Source of the DNA: Chloroflexota bacterium
GTDB lineage: Bacteria; Chloroflexota; Anaerolineae; Anaerolineales; Villigracilaceae
DNA length: 64,000 nt
Reading direction: 5' to 3'
Assembly: GCA_016234555.1 (NCBI GenBank)
Contig: JACRBJ010000004.1
Coordinates: 22,567 to 86,566 of the forward strand
How positions within the stretch are numbered: position 1 is the stretch's first letter; each line of letters begins with the position of its first letter. Positions 2 to 53,447 of this stretch are shown one piece after another. The translations under genes and the position numbers were made by a program. The notes under the pieces were generated by a model. It worked only from the letters and a program-made list of their open reading frames with translations. It made no database searches and was not told the DNA's origin.

Positions 2-3000
2 TTTGACGACAAGACTCTTGCCATTTTCAGCTTTGACCCGTTTATCCAGCAATTCGGGGAGGAATTTTACAACGCCGCCGCAAAACAAAGGGAACTTCAG
101 GGGACCATCGAGATTCAGTTGCTGCATGAAACCATCGCCCAACTGGGCAGTATTAACACCCACACCGAACGGACAGCCATCGCTGTTGAACAAACCGCTG
201 CCGCCGCCGATGAAATCAGCGACCTGACGGAAAGACTCTTGTTGGGTCAGGCAAAGATGACCGAGCTAAGCGCGGCAATGGAGCAGGTCGCCACAAAAGG
301 CTTTGAACAGGTTTTTGTCCTGCTCGAAAAAATGCTCATGGCATTGAGCAAATCTGGTTTCGGAATCACCATCAACGATGTCAACAACGGCAACGTCATT
401 ATCGGGGACAGCAATCGGTTGGAAAACAACGTCAACAGGAACACGCTCGAAGAATTGCAAGTGGAGATCAACCGCTTGCGCCAGAACGTCATCAGCCAGG
501 AACCCAGCCCGGAGACCCTGCAGGTGATCGAGAAACGCTACCGCCAGCACATCATCACCTGGTTCGAGCACCTGACCTTTCAGGGCATGATGCGCACCGC
601 ACAGGCAATCTCCCTGCCTTTGGAGGATGTGTACGTGGAATTAAGGGCGGTGGGCGAAGTGCCAGAAGCCGCAGATACTTTCAGCGTGGAAGAACGGCGC
701 TTGTTGCTTGAAGTCAAGGATGAGGACGAAGGCGCAAAACAGGAACTCCTGCGCCACATGGACACGCTGCGGCGTGAACGCTGGAGCCGCACCACAACCG
801 TCGAGCGGAAATCCATTTCGGAAACGCTATTCAAGCAAGACCAGCGTGCTTTTGTAATTCTGGGAGACCCAGGCAGTGGAAAAAGCACCCTGCTGCATTT
901 TCTTGCGCTGGTGTACGCACGCGGAGCCGAGGCGATTCAACAGAAATTGAAAGCGCCCATGCAGGAAGTGAACCGCCTGCCCATCTTCGTGCCGCTTGCC
1001 GCATTTGACGATATGCTCAGAACACACCCTGGCTTGACCCTGCTGGAATTCCTGCCTATTTATTTTGACCGCCGCAGGTTGATTCCCGGGCTTGCGCCGC
1101 TCTTCCAGCGCGCACTTGAAAGCGGGAATGCGCTGGTTTTGTTTGACGGGCTTGACGAAGTGCTGGACGCCACCACCCGGCGCTACGTGGCAAACCAGGT
1201 GACCGCCATGATGAACGAGTACGCGCCGCGCGGCGTGCGTTTTGCAATGACTAGTCGTTTTGTTGGTTATCGCGAAGCGCCCATCAGCGGGGACGTGCCG
1301 CACCTAAGCGTGCTGGACTTCGGCACGGAAGAGATCAAGACCTTCGTGCATCAATGGTCGCACACCTATGAGACCTGGGTGCAGGGCGGAAAAGAAAGCT
1401 TGGAATCCACCCGTGCCGCACATCAACTGGAAAAAGACCTGCTGGAAGATGTGAACAGCATTTCAAGCGTGCGCCGACTGGCTGCCAACCCGTTGATGCT
1501 GACCATGCTGGCTTTGCTGCGCAGGCAGGTTGGGAAACTGCCCCATCGCCGCATCGAGCTGTACAAGCGTTACATGGACACGATGATAGATAACTGGGTG
1601 GAAGCGCGCACGGCTGGCGAACGGGAACATGCCATCAAGATCAGCGACCCGCACCAGGCAGAGAGCTTGCTCATCCCGCTGGCATACTGGCTGCAAAGCT
1701 CACAACCGAGCGGAACGGCATCGAAAGCCGTGATCCAAAACGCGCTGACTGACATCTGCCTACGTGAAGAAGGTTTTGACTCCGACAGCGTGCCTCGACT
1801 AAAACGCAAGGAAGCCGAAGAGCATGCCCGCAAGTTTTTGTTGGAAATGCGTAATATGAGCGGGCTGATCGTGGAACGCGGCAACGATGCCTTTGGCTTC
1901 TTGCACCTGACTTTTCAGGAATATTTTGCAGGGCGCGCGCTGGCGCAAATGAAAGCGGAAGACCGTTGGGACGCAATATCGCCCCACCTGCACGACCCGC
2001 GCTGGCGCGAGCCGATTTTGCTGTGCGCAGGACAGCTTGGCATTGTGGAAAAAAGGCGCGCCGATGTCAGCGATTTTGTGCGGAATATTTTCCAACATGA
2101 AGACTCGACAGAAAAAGACCTGCACCGTAACCTGTTGCTGGTTTTATCCATTGCCGGGGATGATGTGAACCTTGAGCCCGCCCTGATCCATGAACTTGCG
2201 AATCAGGCTGTAGAATGTTTGCCTACCAAAGTGTATACCTTTGCAAATGAACTCATCAATAAATTGGGGCAACTGGTTGCGAATGACACCGCGAAAGCGG
2301 AAATTTGCTTTTCAAAAATTTGGGATGAGCAGGATAGCCAACTGCACACTGCCGCGATCAAAGCTTTGGAAACCCATCTGGGAAATGCAGCCATTCGCGA
2401 GCAAATCCTCATATGCCTCGACGATGAGAATTGGCAGGTGCGTATCTCTGCAGTCAGCGCGCTTGCAACCCTCATCGCTCCCGACCAGGTAGTCCGCGAC
2501 AAAATCCTCAAATGCCTCGATGATGATGAGAATTGGCAGGTGCGTACCTCTGCAGTCAGCGCGCTCTTGCCACTCATCACCTCCGACCAGGAAGTTCACG
2601 ATCAAATCCTTAAATGCTTTGACGATGAAAACGAGTATATGCGCAGGTCCGTAGTAAACACGCTCGAACCCCTTGTTGCCTCCGACCAGGTAGTCCGCGA
2701 GCAAATCCTCAAATGTCTCGACGATCCAAATGAATTAGTACGCAATGCCGCAGTCAGCGCACTCACAACCCTCGTCGCCTCCGATCAAGAAATCCGCGAC
2801 CAAATCCTCAAACGCCTTGAAGATCCAGGTTCAGATGTGTATAGTGCCGCAGTCAACGCGCTCATAACCCTCGTTGCCTCCGATCAAGAAATCCGCGACC
2901 AAATCCTCAAACGCCTCGACGACCAAAATGAATGGGTACGCAGATCCGTAGTCAGTGCGCTTGCGCCCCTCGTCGCCTCCGACACAGAAGTCCGCGACCA

Positions 3001-5092
3001 AATCCTCAAATGCCTCGACGACCAAAATGAATGGGTGCGCAGATCCGTAGTCAGTGCGCTTGCGCCCCTCGTCGCCTCCGACACAGAAGTCCGCGACCAA
3101 ATCCTTAAACGCCTCGACGACCAAAATGAATGGGTGCGTAGTGCTGCAGTCAGCGCGCTCGCGGCCCTTGTCGCCTCTGATAAGGTAGTTCTTGATAGAC
3201 TTGAAATTCAAGCGACAGAAGGAGATTGGCAGATCAGAAAATCAACAGTGGAGGCATTGGCTCAATCCTTACATCATCCGCGACTCGTTGCGCCTATTAC
3301 CGAAATACTTGACAACTCCCTAAATATATTGTTAGTTGAAAAGGAAAACCCCTTTATAAGAGAAGCCATCCCTGCGCTGAAACATCTTATTGCCTCCGAT
3401 CAGGAAGTCCGCGCTCAAATCCTCAAATGCCTCAACAATCCAGATTCAGGTGTTCGCAGTGCCGCAGTCAGCGCACTCGCATCCCTCGTCGCCTCCGACA
3501 CAGAAGTCCGCGACCAAATCCTCAAATGCCTCGACGATGAAAGCGAGTACGTGCGCCGTTCGGTATCCAGCGCGCTCGCGCCCCTTGCCGCCTCCGATCA
3601 AGAAGTCCGCGCTCAAATCCTCAAACGCCTTGATGATCCAGATTCAGATGTTCGTAGTGCCGCAGTCAGCGCGCTCGCGCCCCTTGCCGCCTCCGATCAA
3701 GAAGTCCGCGCCCAAATCCTCAAACGCCTTGATGATCCAGATTCAGATGTTCGTAGTGCCGCAGTCAGTGCGTTTGCGCCCCTTGCCGCCTCCGATCAAG
3801 AAGTCCGCGCTCAAATCCTCAAATGCCTTGATGATCCAGATTCAGATGTTCGTAGTGCCGCAGTCAGCGCACTACTTTCTCTTGGTGTCACCGAACAAGA
3901 ACTGGAGAGACTGATGGAAGGAAATTGGCGAATCAGTGCAGCATGGCTGGAGTTCCTAGCCAACATATATTATTTGCAATTGAAAGTGCCTGCCACCAAA
4001 TTACCGGAAGCATCATCTGATATCCTCCGTTTCCTCAAACAGCTTAATGATGAAAATGAGGATGTACAAAGGTTTTTGTTTGGTTTTCTCGCTAGTCTCG
4101 CCACCTCCGATCAAGAAGTCCGCGCTCAAATCCTCAAACGCCTCGACAAAGAAAATTGGGATGTGCGCAGTTCCGCAGTCAACGCTCTCGCAACCTTCAT
4201 CGCTCCCGGTCAGGAAGTTCATGATCAACCCTTCAAACGACTCGATAGTAAAATTGCAAACTTACGTCTTTTTGTATTCAGTACGCTCGCTTCCCTCGCT
4301 GCCACGGATGCGGAAGTCCGCGAGCAAACCCTCAAACACCTCGACAATGAAAACGAAAACGTGCGCAGTTCCGCAGTCAGTGCGCTCGCGCCCCTCGCCA
4401 CCTCCGACAAGGAAGTCCGCGACCAAATCCTCAAACATCTCGTTGATCAAAACGGCAGTGTAAGGAGAATTGCGTTTGAAACCTTGTATTCATCTGCATC
4501 GGAATATAAAACTATCACTTTGGATGAGATAAGAGATTTTTTATTATCTGAATTCTCTGATGTAAGCCTTATTGGAATTAGTGAAGTAAACAGAAATAGA
4601 AACCAGGAAATGAGAAAACACCTTGCCGGTCATTTGACAAAGGAGTATTTATTACCCTTATTGAAAAACCCCAGTTGGAAAATCCGCTTGGAAGCGACCT
4701 TGCTTTTGCTGAACAGATACCCCCATCCCCACCAGGAGATCATTGACCGAATCCTGAAATGTATGGATGACAAACGCGGATTGGAAAGTTTTCCCGCTCG
4801 CCTGTCTGCCGCCTCATACCTGATCAACAGGGATGCATACAGCGCTCATGCAATTCAAGTCTGCCTCGATGCGTTAAAATATGGCACGGGCAAGTGGGAT
4901 TACCTGCCAGAGAGTGGTGAGATTCGTAAGCAAGCCGCGCTCATCCTCGGTACGTTGGAGCCAGTCCGTTACGACCAAAGGGTCTACGATCAACTGTATA
5001 AATCCATGACATCAGATGAAGATGCTAAAGTACGCGATACAGCCTATGGCACACTGGTCAAATTGGCGCGGGCGAAGGAGTTTAAGCAATGA
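2..5092 (+). CDS. NACHT-domain NTPase with C-terminal HEAT-repeat array (NLR/STAND-like), 5'-truncated by window edge
   Basis: P-loop VILGDPGSGKSTLLHFLAL, Walker-B-like NALVLFDGLDEV, sensor-like MTSR; then many ~33-aa HEAT units (e.g. VRDQILKCLDDQNEWVRRSVVSALAPLVASDTE). The frame is open from base 2 (FDDKTLAIFSFDPFIQQF...) before the listed TTG at 119. Confidence 0.88.
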   Translation, partial: FDDKTLAIFSFDPFIQQFGEEFYNAAAKQRELQGTIEIQLLHETIAQLGSINTHTERTAIAVEQTAAAADEISDLTERLLLGQAKMTELSAAMEQVATKGFEQVFVLLEKMLMALSKSGFGITINDVNNGNVIIGDSNRLENNVNRNTLEELQVEINRLRQNVISQEPSPETLQVIEKRYRQHIITWFEHLTFQGMMRTAQAISLPLEDVYVELRAVGEVPEAADTFSVEERRLLLEVKDEDEGAKQELLRHMDTLRRERWSRTTTVERKSISETLFKQDQRAFVILGDPGSGKSTLLHFLALVYARGAEAIQQKLKAPMQEVNRLPIFVPLAAFDDMLRTHPGLTLLEFLPIYFDRRRLIPGLAPLFQRALESGNALVLFDGLDEVLDATTRRYVANQVTAMMNEYAPRGVRFAMTSRFVGYREAPISGDVPHLSVLDFGTEEIKTFVHQWSHTYETWVQGGKESLESTRAAHQLEKDLLEDVNSISSVRRLAANPLMLTMLALLRRQVGKLPHRRIELYKRYMDTMIDNWVEARTAGEREHAIKISDPHQAESLLIPLAYWLQSSQPSGTASKAVIQNALTDICLREEGFDSDSVPRLKRKEAEEHARKFLLEMRNMSGLIVERGNDAFGFLHLTFQEYFAGRALAQMKAEDRWDAISPHLHDPRWREPILLCAGQLGIVEKRRADVSDFVRNIFQHEDSTEKDLHRNLLLVLSIAGDDVNLEPALIHELANQAVECLPTKVYTFANELINKLGQLVANDTAKAEICFSKIWDEQDSQLHTAAIKALETHLGNAAIREQILICLDDENWQVRISAVSALATLIAPDQVVRDKILKCLDDDENWQVRTSAVSALLPLITSDQEVHDQILKCFDDENEYMRRSVVNTLEPLVASDQVVREQILKCLDDPNELVRNAAVSALTTLVASDQEIRDQILKRLEDPGSDVYSAAVNALITLVASDQEIRDQILKRLDDQNEWVRRSVVSALAPLVASDTEVRDQILKCLDDQNEWVRRSVVSALAPLVASDTEVRDQILKRLDDQNEWVRSAAVSALAALVASDKVVLDRLEIQATEGDWQIRKSTVEALAQSLHHPRLVAPITEILDNSLNILLVEKENPFIREAIPALKHLIASDQEVRAQILKCLNNPDSGVRSAAVSALASLVASDTEVRDQILKCLDDESEYVRRSVSSALAPLAASDQEVRAQILKRLDDPDSDVRSAAVSALAPLAASDQEVRAQILKRLDDPDSDVRSAAVSAFAPLAASDQEVRAQILKCLDDPDSDVRSAAVSALLSLGVTEQELERLMEGNWRISAAWLEFLANIYYLQLKVPATKLPEASSDILRFLKQLNDENEDVQRFLFGFLASLATSDQEVRAQILKRLDKENWDVRSSAVNALATFIAPGQEVHDQPFKRLDSKIANLRLFVFSTLASLAATDAEVREQTLKHLDNENENVRSSAVSALAPLATSDKEVRDQILKHLVDQNGSVRRIAFETLYSSASEYKTITLDEIRDFLLSEFSDVSLIGISEVNRNRNQEMRKHLAGHLTKEYLLPLLKNPSWKIRLEATLLLLNRYPHPHQEIIDRILKCMDDKRGLESFPARLSAASYLINRDAYSAHAIQVCLDALKYGTGKWDYLPESGEIRKQAALILGTLEPVRYDQRVYDQLYKSMTSDEDAKVRDTAYGTLVKLARAKEFKQ
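2390..4460 (+). repeat. Tandem 99-bp (33-aa) HEAT-coding repeats, some units near-identical in DNA
   Basis: Units 2912-3010 and 3011-3109 differ at 3 of 99 positions by eye; 3602-3700 and 3701-3799 differ at 4 of 99. Confidence 0.9.
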
Positions 5093-5131
5093 AAAAAGAC
5101 TTCCGAAGCGCTTGCGCGAGACTTCGGAAGT
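5093..5131 (-). terminator. Intrinsic terminator for the minus-strand gene 5138-5968
   Basis: 10-bp stem acttccgaag/cttcggaagt; on the minus strand it is followed by a T-tract (complement of gaaaaaag). Confidence 0.7.
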
Positions 5132-5137
5132 TTGGTA

Positions 5138-5968
5138 TTACGGTGTTGTCGGTGTTGGAGTTTCCGTCGGCGTGGGGGCGTCTGTGGGAACCTCGATAGT
5201 GGGTGTTGGGGTGTATGTGGCTGTAACCACAATGACAACCGGCGTCACGGTAGGTGTATAGGTCCTGGTTGGCGTATTGCTGATTGTACCGGTAGGTGTC
5301 GGGGTGACTGAGCCGGTGGCGGTGGCGCTGTTCTTGATTACCACGGTCAACTCATCTCCAAATTGTTGTCCCTTGTCGTTGGTCAGCTTCCACCTGCCGG
5401 TGATCGTCCCAGCGGCGGAGGAGGAAGTGAGCACGACCGAAATATCCACAGATTCACCCGGGTTCACCGCTTTGTTGATCGGGGTCGACTTTCCGCCGAG
5501 GCTGTCACCGGAGACGAAGGTGAGTTGGTAGGTTGCTGTCCAGGCGCAGGTGCCGGTGTTGGAAACCTTCCAGGTCTTGGTGAAGGATTGCCCGGCGGCG
5601 ACAACAGTCCCATCGGGGATGGTCACATCGCTGACGTAAACGGCGTTGTCACAGACGGAGACAGATCCCGCTGTCGGCTTGAGGGTCGGCAGTTGAAGCG
5701 GGGTCTGCTGGGCGGTTGGGCTGAGGAGCGGCGGCAGGGTGGGACTCGGCAGGCTTGTCGCGGGAGTCGGTGTCGCCACGAAGGTCCCAGATTGAAGGGT
5801 TTGTTGGGCGGCAACCGTCGCGGCGGCATTGGTGTAGATCGCCTCCACTTCGACGACGGGGTCTTCCGCCTTGCCTCCGCTAAAGGAAAGCATGAGCAGC
5901 GTAAATCCGCCGAAGACGAGGACCGCAACGCCTGCCCACATCAAAATTGTTCTTGTTTTCGTATCCAT
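5138..5968 (-). CDS. Membrane-anchored protein with NBR1-type Ig-like domain and Thr/Pro-rich linkers
   Basis: N-terminal TM; SFTKTWKVSNTGTCAWTATYQLTFVSGDSLGG...VNPGESVDISVVLTSSSAAGTITGRWKLTNDKGQQFG matches the NBR1 central-domain pattern. Confidence 0.75.
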   Translation of the reverse strand: MDTKTRTILMWAGVAVLVFGGFTLLMLSFSGGKAEDPVVEVEAIYTNAAATVAAQQTLQSGTFVATPTPATSLPSPTLPPLLSPTAQQTPLQLPTLKPTAGSVSVCDNAVYVSDVTIPDGTVVAAGQSFTKTWKVSNTGTCAWTATYQLTFVSGDSLGGKSTPINKAVNPGESVDISVVLTSSSAAGTITGRWKLTNDKGQQFGDELTVVIKNSATATGSVTPTPTGTISNTPTRTYTPTVTPVVIVVTATYTPTPTIEVPTDAPTPTETPTPTTP

Positions 5969-6131: not shown

Positions 6132-7220
6132 ATGCTTATTTATGACCTCGACCTCCCCGCACTTGCCGAACTGCTAAAATCCTGGGACGAGCCTGCCTAC
6201 CGCGCAAAGCAAATCTGGCAGGGACTTTACCAGCATCTTTACAACTCACCCGACCAGTTCACAAACCTGTCCAAACCCCTGCGCGAGCGAATGACGGCGG
6301 AATTCAACTTCTCTCCTTTCAAAATCAAAACCTATCTCGACTCGTCGGACGGCTTCACGCGCAAAACGCTGTTTGAACTTCCCGATGGGAATTTGATCGA
6401 AGCCGTGCTGATGCGCTATGGCGATCCCGCTGACGACCCACAAATGTCGACCTCTGAAACGAACCGACGCGGCGCGAAGAATCGCCGCACGCTTTGCATT
6501 TCCACGCAGGCGGGCTGCGCCATGGGATGCGTCTTCTGCGCGACAGGTCAAATGGGCTTCAAGCGGAATCTGTCCAGCGGCGAGATCGTGGCGCAGGTCA
6601 TGTACTACGCCCAAATGCTCAAGGCGGCGGATGAAGTTGTCAGCAATGTGGTGTTCATGGGCATGGGAGAACCCTTCCACAACTACGAGAACGTCATGGC
6701 TGCCATTGATCGACTCAACGACCCCGATGGATTCAAATTCGGCGCGCGGCGTTTTACCATCTCGACGGTTGGTCTTGTCCCCCAGATTCGGCGCTTCGCC
6801 GACGAAGGACGTCAGGTGAACCTTGCCATCTCTCTCCATGCCGCAACCGATGTGGAACGCCTCGCCATCATGCCGGTCAACAAAAAATACAACATCGAGG
6901 AAGTCATCGAGGCCTGCAAGTATTACGTCGAAAAGACCCATCGCCGCGTGACCTTCGAGTGGGCGCTCATCAACGGAGTTAACGACTCACCCGAAGTGGC
7001 TCGGCAACTTGCGGCGCGGCTCAAAGGGATGCTTTGCCACGTCAACGCAATCCCCCTCAACCCCACCAACGGCTACAGCGGCGCAGCAACCGACCGTCAG
7101 CGGGCGGCAATTTTCAAGGAGATGTTGGAGCAGGCTGGGGTCGGGTGCACGATCCGCATGAGGCGCGGAGTGGACATCCAGGCGGGATGCGGTCAACTGG
7201 CTGGGAGTTTGCTCTTGTGA
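6132..7220 (+). CDS. rlmN: 23S rRNA (adenine-C2)-methyltransferase RlmN (radical SAM)
   Basis: CISTQAGCAMGCVFCATGQMGFKRNL, VVFMGMGEPFHNYENV, RRFTISTVGLVP, C-terminal MRRGVDIQAGCGQL. Confidence 0.95.
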   Translation: MLIYDLDLPALAELLKSWDEPAYRAKQIWQGLYQHLYNSPDQFTNLSKPLRERMTAEFNFSPFKIKTYLDSSDGFTRKTLFELPDGNLIEAVLMRYGDPADDPQMSTSETNRRGAKNRRTLCISTQAGCAMGCVFCATGQMGFKRNLSSGEIVAQVMYYAQMLKAADEVVSNVVFMGMGEPFHNYENVMAAIDRLNDPDGFKFGARRFTISTVGLVPQIRRFADEGRQVNLAISLHAATDVERLAIMPVNKKYNIEEVIEACKYYVEKTHRRVTFEWALINGVNDSPEVARQLAARLKGMLCHVNAIPLNPTNGYSGAATDRQRAAIFKEMLEQAGVGCTIRMRRGVDIQAGCGQLAGSLLL

Positions 7221-53394: not shown

Positions 53395-53447
53395 TTCAGT
53401 AATCAGTCGTCAGTAAACAGTGGTCAGTGGTCAGTGAGGCGAGAACC

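Follow-up and report, generated by a model that had tools for sequence, protein, structure and literature searches.

What kind of receptor is encoded by the gene that the left edge of this stretch of DNA cuts, and does its repeat array record recent diversification? The window, the whole 64,000 nucleotide stretch that was analysed (G000:C41:22567-86566), begins inside the gene, and window positions 2-5092 (forward strand) match its final 5,091 nt (the 3′ 94%) without a difference. A single open frame runs across these positions and is 5′-truncated at the window edge. The complete gene spans G000:C41:22241-27658 (L002:8242-13659) and encodes 1,805 amino acids, of which the C-terminal 1,696 fall in the window. 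Its first 327 nt precede window position 2, the initiator ATG being at L002:8242 (G000:C41:22241).

The product is a tripartite NNH2-NACHT-HEAT protein. Its NACHT NTPase domain (positions 851-1363, forward strand, as are all features of this gene) matches Pfam family PF05729 with 32.7 bits (cut-off 26.7) and has intact Walker motifs, the Walker A P-loop GDPGSGKST (863-889, residues 397-405), evident in the sequence and in the alignment with relatives, and the Walker B LVLFDGLDE (1133-1159, residues 487-495), whose DGLDE is invariant in that alignment. The best PDB matches of the NACHT model in a Foldseek search are NLRP3, NLRC4 and NOD2 (E from 1e-10 to 1e-8). The HEAT array (2390-4510; HEAT_2, Pfam E 6e-68) consists of 17 regular 33 amino acid units, which are 99 nt long except for unit 2 (102 nt), with two degenerate spacers of about two HEAT-like units each lying within it (spacer 1, 3185-3403; spacer 2, 3899-4114). 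It is followed by an irregular HEAT-like C-terminal cap (4511-5089) that is recognisable in the closest homolog (G095, below). In the AlphaFold2 model the array forms a regular two-helix superhelix; pLDDT is about 80-91 for most of the regular units as far as unit 13 and falls beyond it (70.6 overall). The protein was initially described as NLR-like, with a NACHT P-loop and Walker B followed by a long HEAT superhelix, and that description holds. Three NLR-type features are present, namely an intact NACHT, C-terminal superstructure-forming repeats and an N-terminal domain of effector or adaptor type.

The last of these is the missing N-terminus, which lies mostly in the contig sequence upstream of the window, where it had been proposed to look for an effector domain. 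It is an NNH2 helical domain (PF22734; Pfam E 2e-10, 41.1 bits, cut-off 27) at residues 10-159, mostly upstream of the window, with its end part at positions 2-151. The N-terminus of NNH2 might be comparable to the membrane-perforating heads of fungal HeLo proteins and plant CC-NLRs, a likeness that we take as a lead only; its hydrophobic-moment values are unremarkable, a PDB profile search with NNH2 returned no credible relative, and no paper describing the domain was found in the literature searched. Two long helices (38-352; residues 122-189 and 195-226) are predicted with low confidence to form a coil between NNH2 and NACHT (AlphaFold2 pLDDT mostly 32-72); the model of NNH2 itself is of equally low confidence, and no conclusion here depends on either. 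A short beta-type motif, GFGITINDVNNGNVIIGDSN, lies at 356-415 (residues 228-247) and has a pattern like pre-NTPase motifs in other STAND proteins of the sampled genomes. Several different STAND architectures have, ahead of the NTPase, a motif that roughly follows I-x-I-x-G-x-V-x-x-S-x-I-I-x-G-D-x-N; besides the window site it is found before NB-ARC in two proteins discussed below (L151 and L173) and at the N-termini of NACHT-FGE paralogs (e.g., L005). This motif resembles a beta-arch and may be an amyloid signalling motif, a class that has been described (PMC8086366).

The surroundings of the gene are those of an insertion between housekeeping genes. On the upstream side are the genes of trigger factor, of ClpP and of a HAD phosphatase, and downstream lie a convergent gene for an N_BRCA1_IG domain protein (5138-5968, reverse strand), part of a common HAD-Ig-RlmN gene order, and a gene for an RlmN-type radical-SAM methyltransferase (6132-7220, forward strand). 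In the close congeners G044, G045 and G049 the site is empty, with a terminator-like inverted repeat behind HAD and the Ig gene next; here an A run and a similar inverted repeat (5090-5137) abut the stop codon of the NACHT-HEAT gene and form the right edge of the insertion. Of 63 HAD loci sampled from named assemblies of Anaerolineales/Chloroflexota, the ClpP-HAD pair is retained in 57 and 51 bridge HAD to RlmN, and none of these 51 related contigs has a homolog of the window protein between the two genes. The GC content at third codon positions (GC3) is 0.58 in the NACHT-HEAT gene versus 0.70-0.71 in five neighbors. These observations support a lineage-specific, horizontally acquired insertion. 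Housekeeping neighbors had been named as evidence against a conflict receptor; the neighbors are indeed housekeeping genes, but because they flank an insertion they do not refute that reading. Contamination (7.74% for the genome) is unlikely for this contig, as its ClpP and HAD are 98.5% and 90% identical, respectively, to those of G045 and stand in the same gene order. Dispersed intergenic sequences of the form CAGTAATCAG...CAGT occur 23 times in the genome, whereas the reversed pattern, used as a control, has no match; they include copies at L002:8167-8191, which abuts the left side of the insertion, and at window positions 53396-53436. Elsewhere on the contig, upstream of the window, a tyrosine recombinase gene (PF00589) overlaps an HNH-like gene that PADLOC matches weakly to PDC-M01B (L003:5779-7169).

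The slot between HAD and RlmN (in the window, from its edge to 6131) carries other STAND receptors in three of the 51 bridging contigs, each from another Anaerolineales genome. They are a TIR-NB-ARC-TPR protein (L143:7508-10042), a TIR-TRADD-N-NB-ARC-TPR protein (L173:7290-10151) and a beta-motif-NB-ARC-TPR protein whose gene adjoins a histidine kinase gene (L151:7180-9537). Since their NB-ARC-TPR cores are alike, the three may go back to one event with exchanged N-termini and are not to be taken as three independent counts. The slot's contents suggest that it is a chromosomal hot spot for STAND receptors, which is guilt by location and not proof. In contigs where RlmN was not found downstream of HAD, genes read as integrase-like tyrosine recombinases (L137:8663-9610 and L161:7459-8547) lie close behind HAD/Ig, and in one such contig transposase-like frames (L154:8043-10791) lie close behind the HAD or Ig gene; if these assignments are right, they suggest a recombination-prone site behind the HAD/Ig gene.

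Full orthologs of the protein were not found in the genome-contig collection, in viral contigs, in 56 congeners or, at E 1e-80, in 400 genomes of the phylum, nor on plasmids, where the best match has about 30% identity over 59%. The closest homolog, from another family of the same order (G095; L069:6583-11838), is 45% identical in NACHT and has the same NACHT-HEAT-cap layout, in which 17 regular units can be recognised, but its N-terminus differs and lacks NNH2. NNH2 itself exceeds its cut-off in four of the 400 phylum genomes, and among 101 relatives it is found only in the genome of the window, once. A paralog with a beta-motif-NACHT-FGE-like layout (G000:C75:115539-116711; L070:4099-6744) has counterparts in most congeners, unlike the species-specific window gene.

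The initial annotation took the HEAT array to be recently homogenised, citing adjacent units identical at 96/99 and 95/99 positions by eye. Exact counts give the same values, for units 6 and 7 (2888-3085; 96/99 nt, dS 0.04, two replacements) and units 11 and 12 (3602-3799; 95/99 nt, dS 0.13, one replacement), which are recent tandem duplicates. They are also the sole young pairs, the only two of all 136 unit pairs with at least 85% amino acid identity; the median pair matches at 70/99 nt and 19/33 amino acids (dS 0.68, dN 0.27, dN/dS 0.38), so recent homogenisation does not extend across the array. Neighboring units are nonetheless more alike (74.4/99) than under shuffles of their order (permutation p = 0.0005), as is expected from tandem duplication of units. 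Assembly artefact or stutter is an unlikely source of the duplicates, as the copies differ by 3 and 4 nt and the flanks are syntenic with relatives. The dS values of the young pairs are far below that of ClpP to the nearest sampled relative (0.65), and these unit duplications are thus lineage-specific. HAD and RlmN were left out of this dS comparison, as indels shifted their ungapped alignments out of frame. In the G095 homolog the units are diverged (median 12/33, best pair 62/99 nt), and the units of the window protein match them at a median of only 10/33, their best partners sitting within their own array; this greater likeness within the array (19/33) fits turnover within the lineage. The share of 99-nt windows with a twin of at least 94/99 is 0.18 here and 0.00 in G095, where an array of similar length lacks internal homogenisation, so that unit turnover is not constant in the family. 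Two STAND proteins with an NNH2 head from another genome of the phylum (G182; L125:3994-8934 and L126:2691-7025) reach 0.58 and 0.44, respectively; they have strongly homogenised arrays of 96-99-nt units, of unassigned type in L125 and TPR in L126, and, within them, 99-nt windows identical at 99/99 positions. All this fits a sensor array that grows by local duplication of units, in a known kind of bacterial NLR-like protein whose repeat-turnover signal is modest, and not a wholesale homogenised array.

Whether this turnover is adaptive is a separate matter. Replacements across the array concentrate at unit positions 13, 15, 16, 19, 20, 26, 27 and 29, and one face of helix B (positions 16/19/20/23/26/27) has a mean pN of 0.41 versus 0.24 overall (permutation p = 0.0014, or 0.010 within helix B), p values that are optimistic since the face was picked after the variability was known. 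Such one-sided variation would match the expected ligand face, although the conserved core of any HEAT protein would add to the signal. Variability is enriched on a face of helix B, but overall dN/dS is below 1: pairwise dN/dS exceeds 1 in only two pairs, and per-position pN is mostly below pS. By these pairwise and per-position estimates, positive selection on the repeats is not borne out, and of the proposed diversification by unit duplication the two young duplications remain, but not array-wide homogenisation or positive selection. The clustering of differences at the QNEW/PDSD/ESEY and RR/SA positions is seen across the whole array but not in the near-identical pairs, which differ elsewhere, at positions 2, 9 and 17 (units 6/7) and 4, 23 and 25 (units 11/12), none of them a QNEW/PDSD or RR/SA position. 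Diversification by a diversity-generating retroelement is ruled out, as the genome has no RVT_1 (reverse transcriptase) match. The young pairs could also have arisen neutrally, by slippage during replication of a long 99-nt repeat and without any adaptive diversification, an explanation that is compatible with a defence function, does not exclude a receptor and is quite possible, if on the doubtful side. In that case the identity of the units would carry no information on what the gene does. It would account for the low median dN/dS, for young pairs whose 3 and 4 differences are mostly synonymous or at conserved framework positions, and for the persistence of a similar-length array without homogenisation in G095; it does not readily account for the enrichment of replacements on one helix-B face (a face chosen post hoc), for the strongly homogenised arrays of two other NNH2-headed STAND proteins, or for the fungal NLR precedents.

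It seems reasonably probable that the gene encodes a horizontally acquired conflict receptor of the NACHT clade of STAND proteins (bacterial NLR-type). The HEAT superhelix would then be the sensor, with the concave-type face of helix B as its likely ligand surface. The array itself grew by tandem duplications of single 99-nt units, mostly old and two of them young, and the copies then diverged while selection was purifying overall. In a scheme drawn from the named protein families, ligand bound along the concave HEAT face would release the NACHT domain, an ATP-dependent switch that would bind ATP and then oligomerise upon sensing, and the clustered NNH2 heads might act on a host target or membrane or recruit another protein. 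A partner with the same head is unlikely, since NNH2 is found only once in the genome. The putative antiphage role and rapid diversification that were initially proposed go beyond what the analysis supports. No known effector enzyme is fused to the protein or encoded next to the gene, and there is no defence island, neither the recombinase of the contig nor any of eight further proteins of the window having a PADLOC match. No named NACHT system in PADLOC matches the whole protein (its matches cover the repeats and 40 residues at the P-loop), and NCBIfam EruA reaches 24.6 bits against a cut-off of 1000 and aligns mainly around the P-loop.

Some bacterial STAND proteins are regulators. A recently acquired STAND-type signalling or transcriptional regulator or scaffold (MalT-like STAND proteins being an example) with no conflict role would share this architecture, and the lack of a recognised effector enzyme, the position of a single gene between housekeeping genes and the histidine kinase beside one slot-mate (L151) would agree with it. 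Such a regulator is nevertheless rather unlikely given that Pfam recognises no DNA-binding or enzymatic output domain in the protein, that its distribution is patchy, that two of the slot-mates are TIR-headed receptors, and that repeat units turn over. The named relatives are Anaerolineales, which are often filamentous. A kin or self/non-self (incompatibility) receptor acting between filaments or in multicellular aggregates, with the same switch and a cellular ligand rather than a phage, has parallels in fungal NLRs of related architecture (PMC12222747; PMC4986451) but is improbable, as a cellular ligand is unsupported and the searches yielded no other strain carrying the gene for an allelic comparison.

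Should the defence reading of the conflict receptor be right, a little-studied phylum would contribute a NACHT receptor that senses through HEAT repeats and has an uncharacterised helical head. The gradient of repeat turnover, from none in G095 through partial here to strong in G182, lets sensor diversification in bacterial NLRs be studied, and the HAD-RlmN slot is a simple genomic handle for further receptors in Anaerolineales. What goes beyond the initial annotation is chiefly the recovered N-terminus, the evidence for an insertion, the receptors that relatives carry in the slot and the homogenisation gradient in NNH2-headed proteins. More tentatively, the NNH2-headed STAND proteins of Chloroflexota might form a receptor group with HEAT or TPR sensors and repeated unit turnover as in fungal NLRs, for which, together with TIR-headed receptors, the HAD-RlmN gap would be an exchange site.

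Among known systems, the bacterial NACHT-module (bNACHT) proteins that act against phages (Kibby et al. 2023) end in SNaCT or NCH1 domains, some with a nuclease, in the members outlined in PMC12169576. The window protein is like them in being the product of a single gene with a central NACHT, an N-terminal effector or adaptor region and a helical C-terminal region, and differs, by that outline, in its NNH2 and 17-unit HEAT array and in matching no named NACHT system as a whole. The fungal HNWD/het-d/het-e NLRs have arrays more than 80-85% identical throughout, positive selection and length polymorphism (PMC12222747; PMC4986451). NACHT with superstructure repeats, tandem unit duplication and variable residues on one face are shared with them, whereas the identity and selection that mark fungal high-internal-conservation NLRs are absent here (2 of 136 pairs at 85% or above; dN/dS 0.38). 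The prokaryotic highly repetitive WD40 proteins (PMC5587647) are likewise bacterial repeat arrays in which low dS points to young duplications, but the present repeats are HEAT rather than WD40 and, in an informal comparison, are moderately repetitive at most by that paper's thresholds. The closest solved sequences to the array are the designed HEAT-like alphaRep binders (6ft5, 6fsq and others; E 7e-28), which form a regular consensus HEAT-like superhelix; they are artificial and lack an NTPase, and the likeness is of fold only. Within the phylum, L125, L126 and L127 share the NNH2 head and a STAND NTPase; L127 differs in ending in an FGE-sulfatase domain, while L125 and L126 also share the beta-type motif and have arrays of helical repeats whose units measure about 96-99 nt, though their arrays are not HEAT (that of L126 is TPR) and are far more homogenised than that of the window protein.
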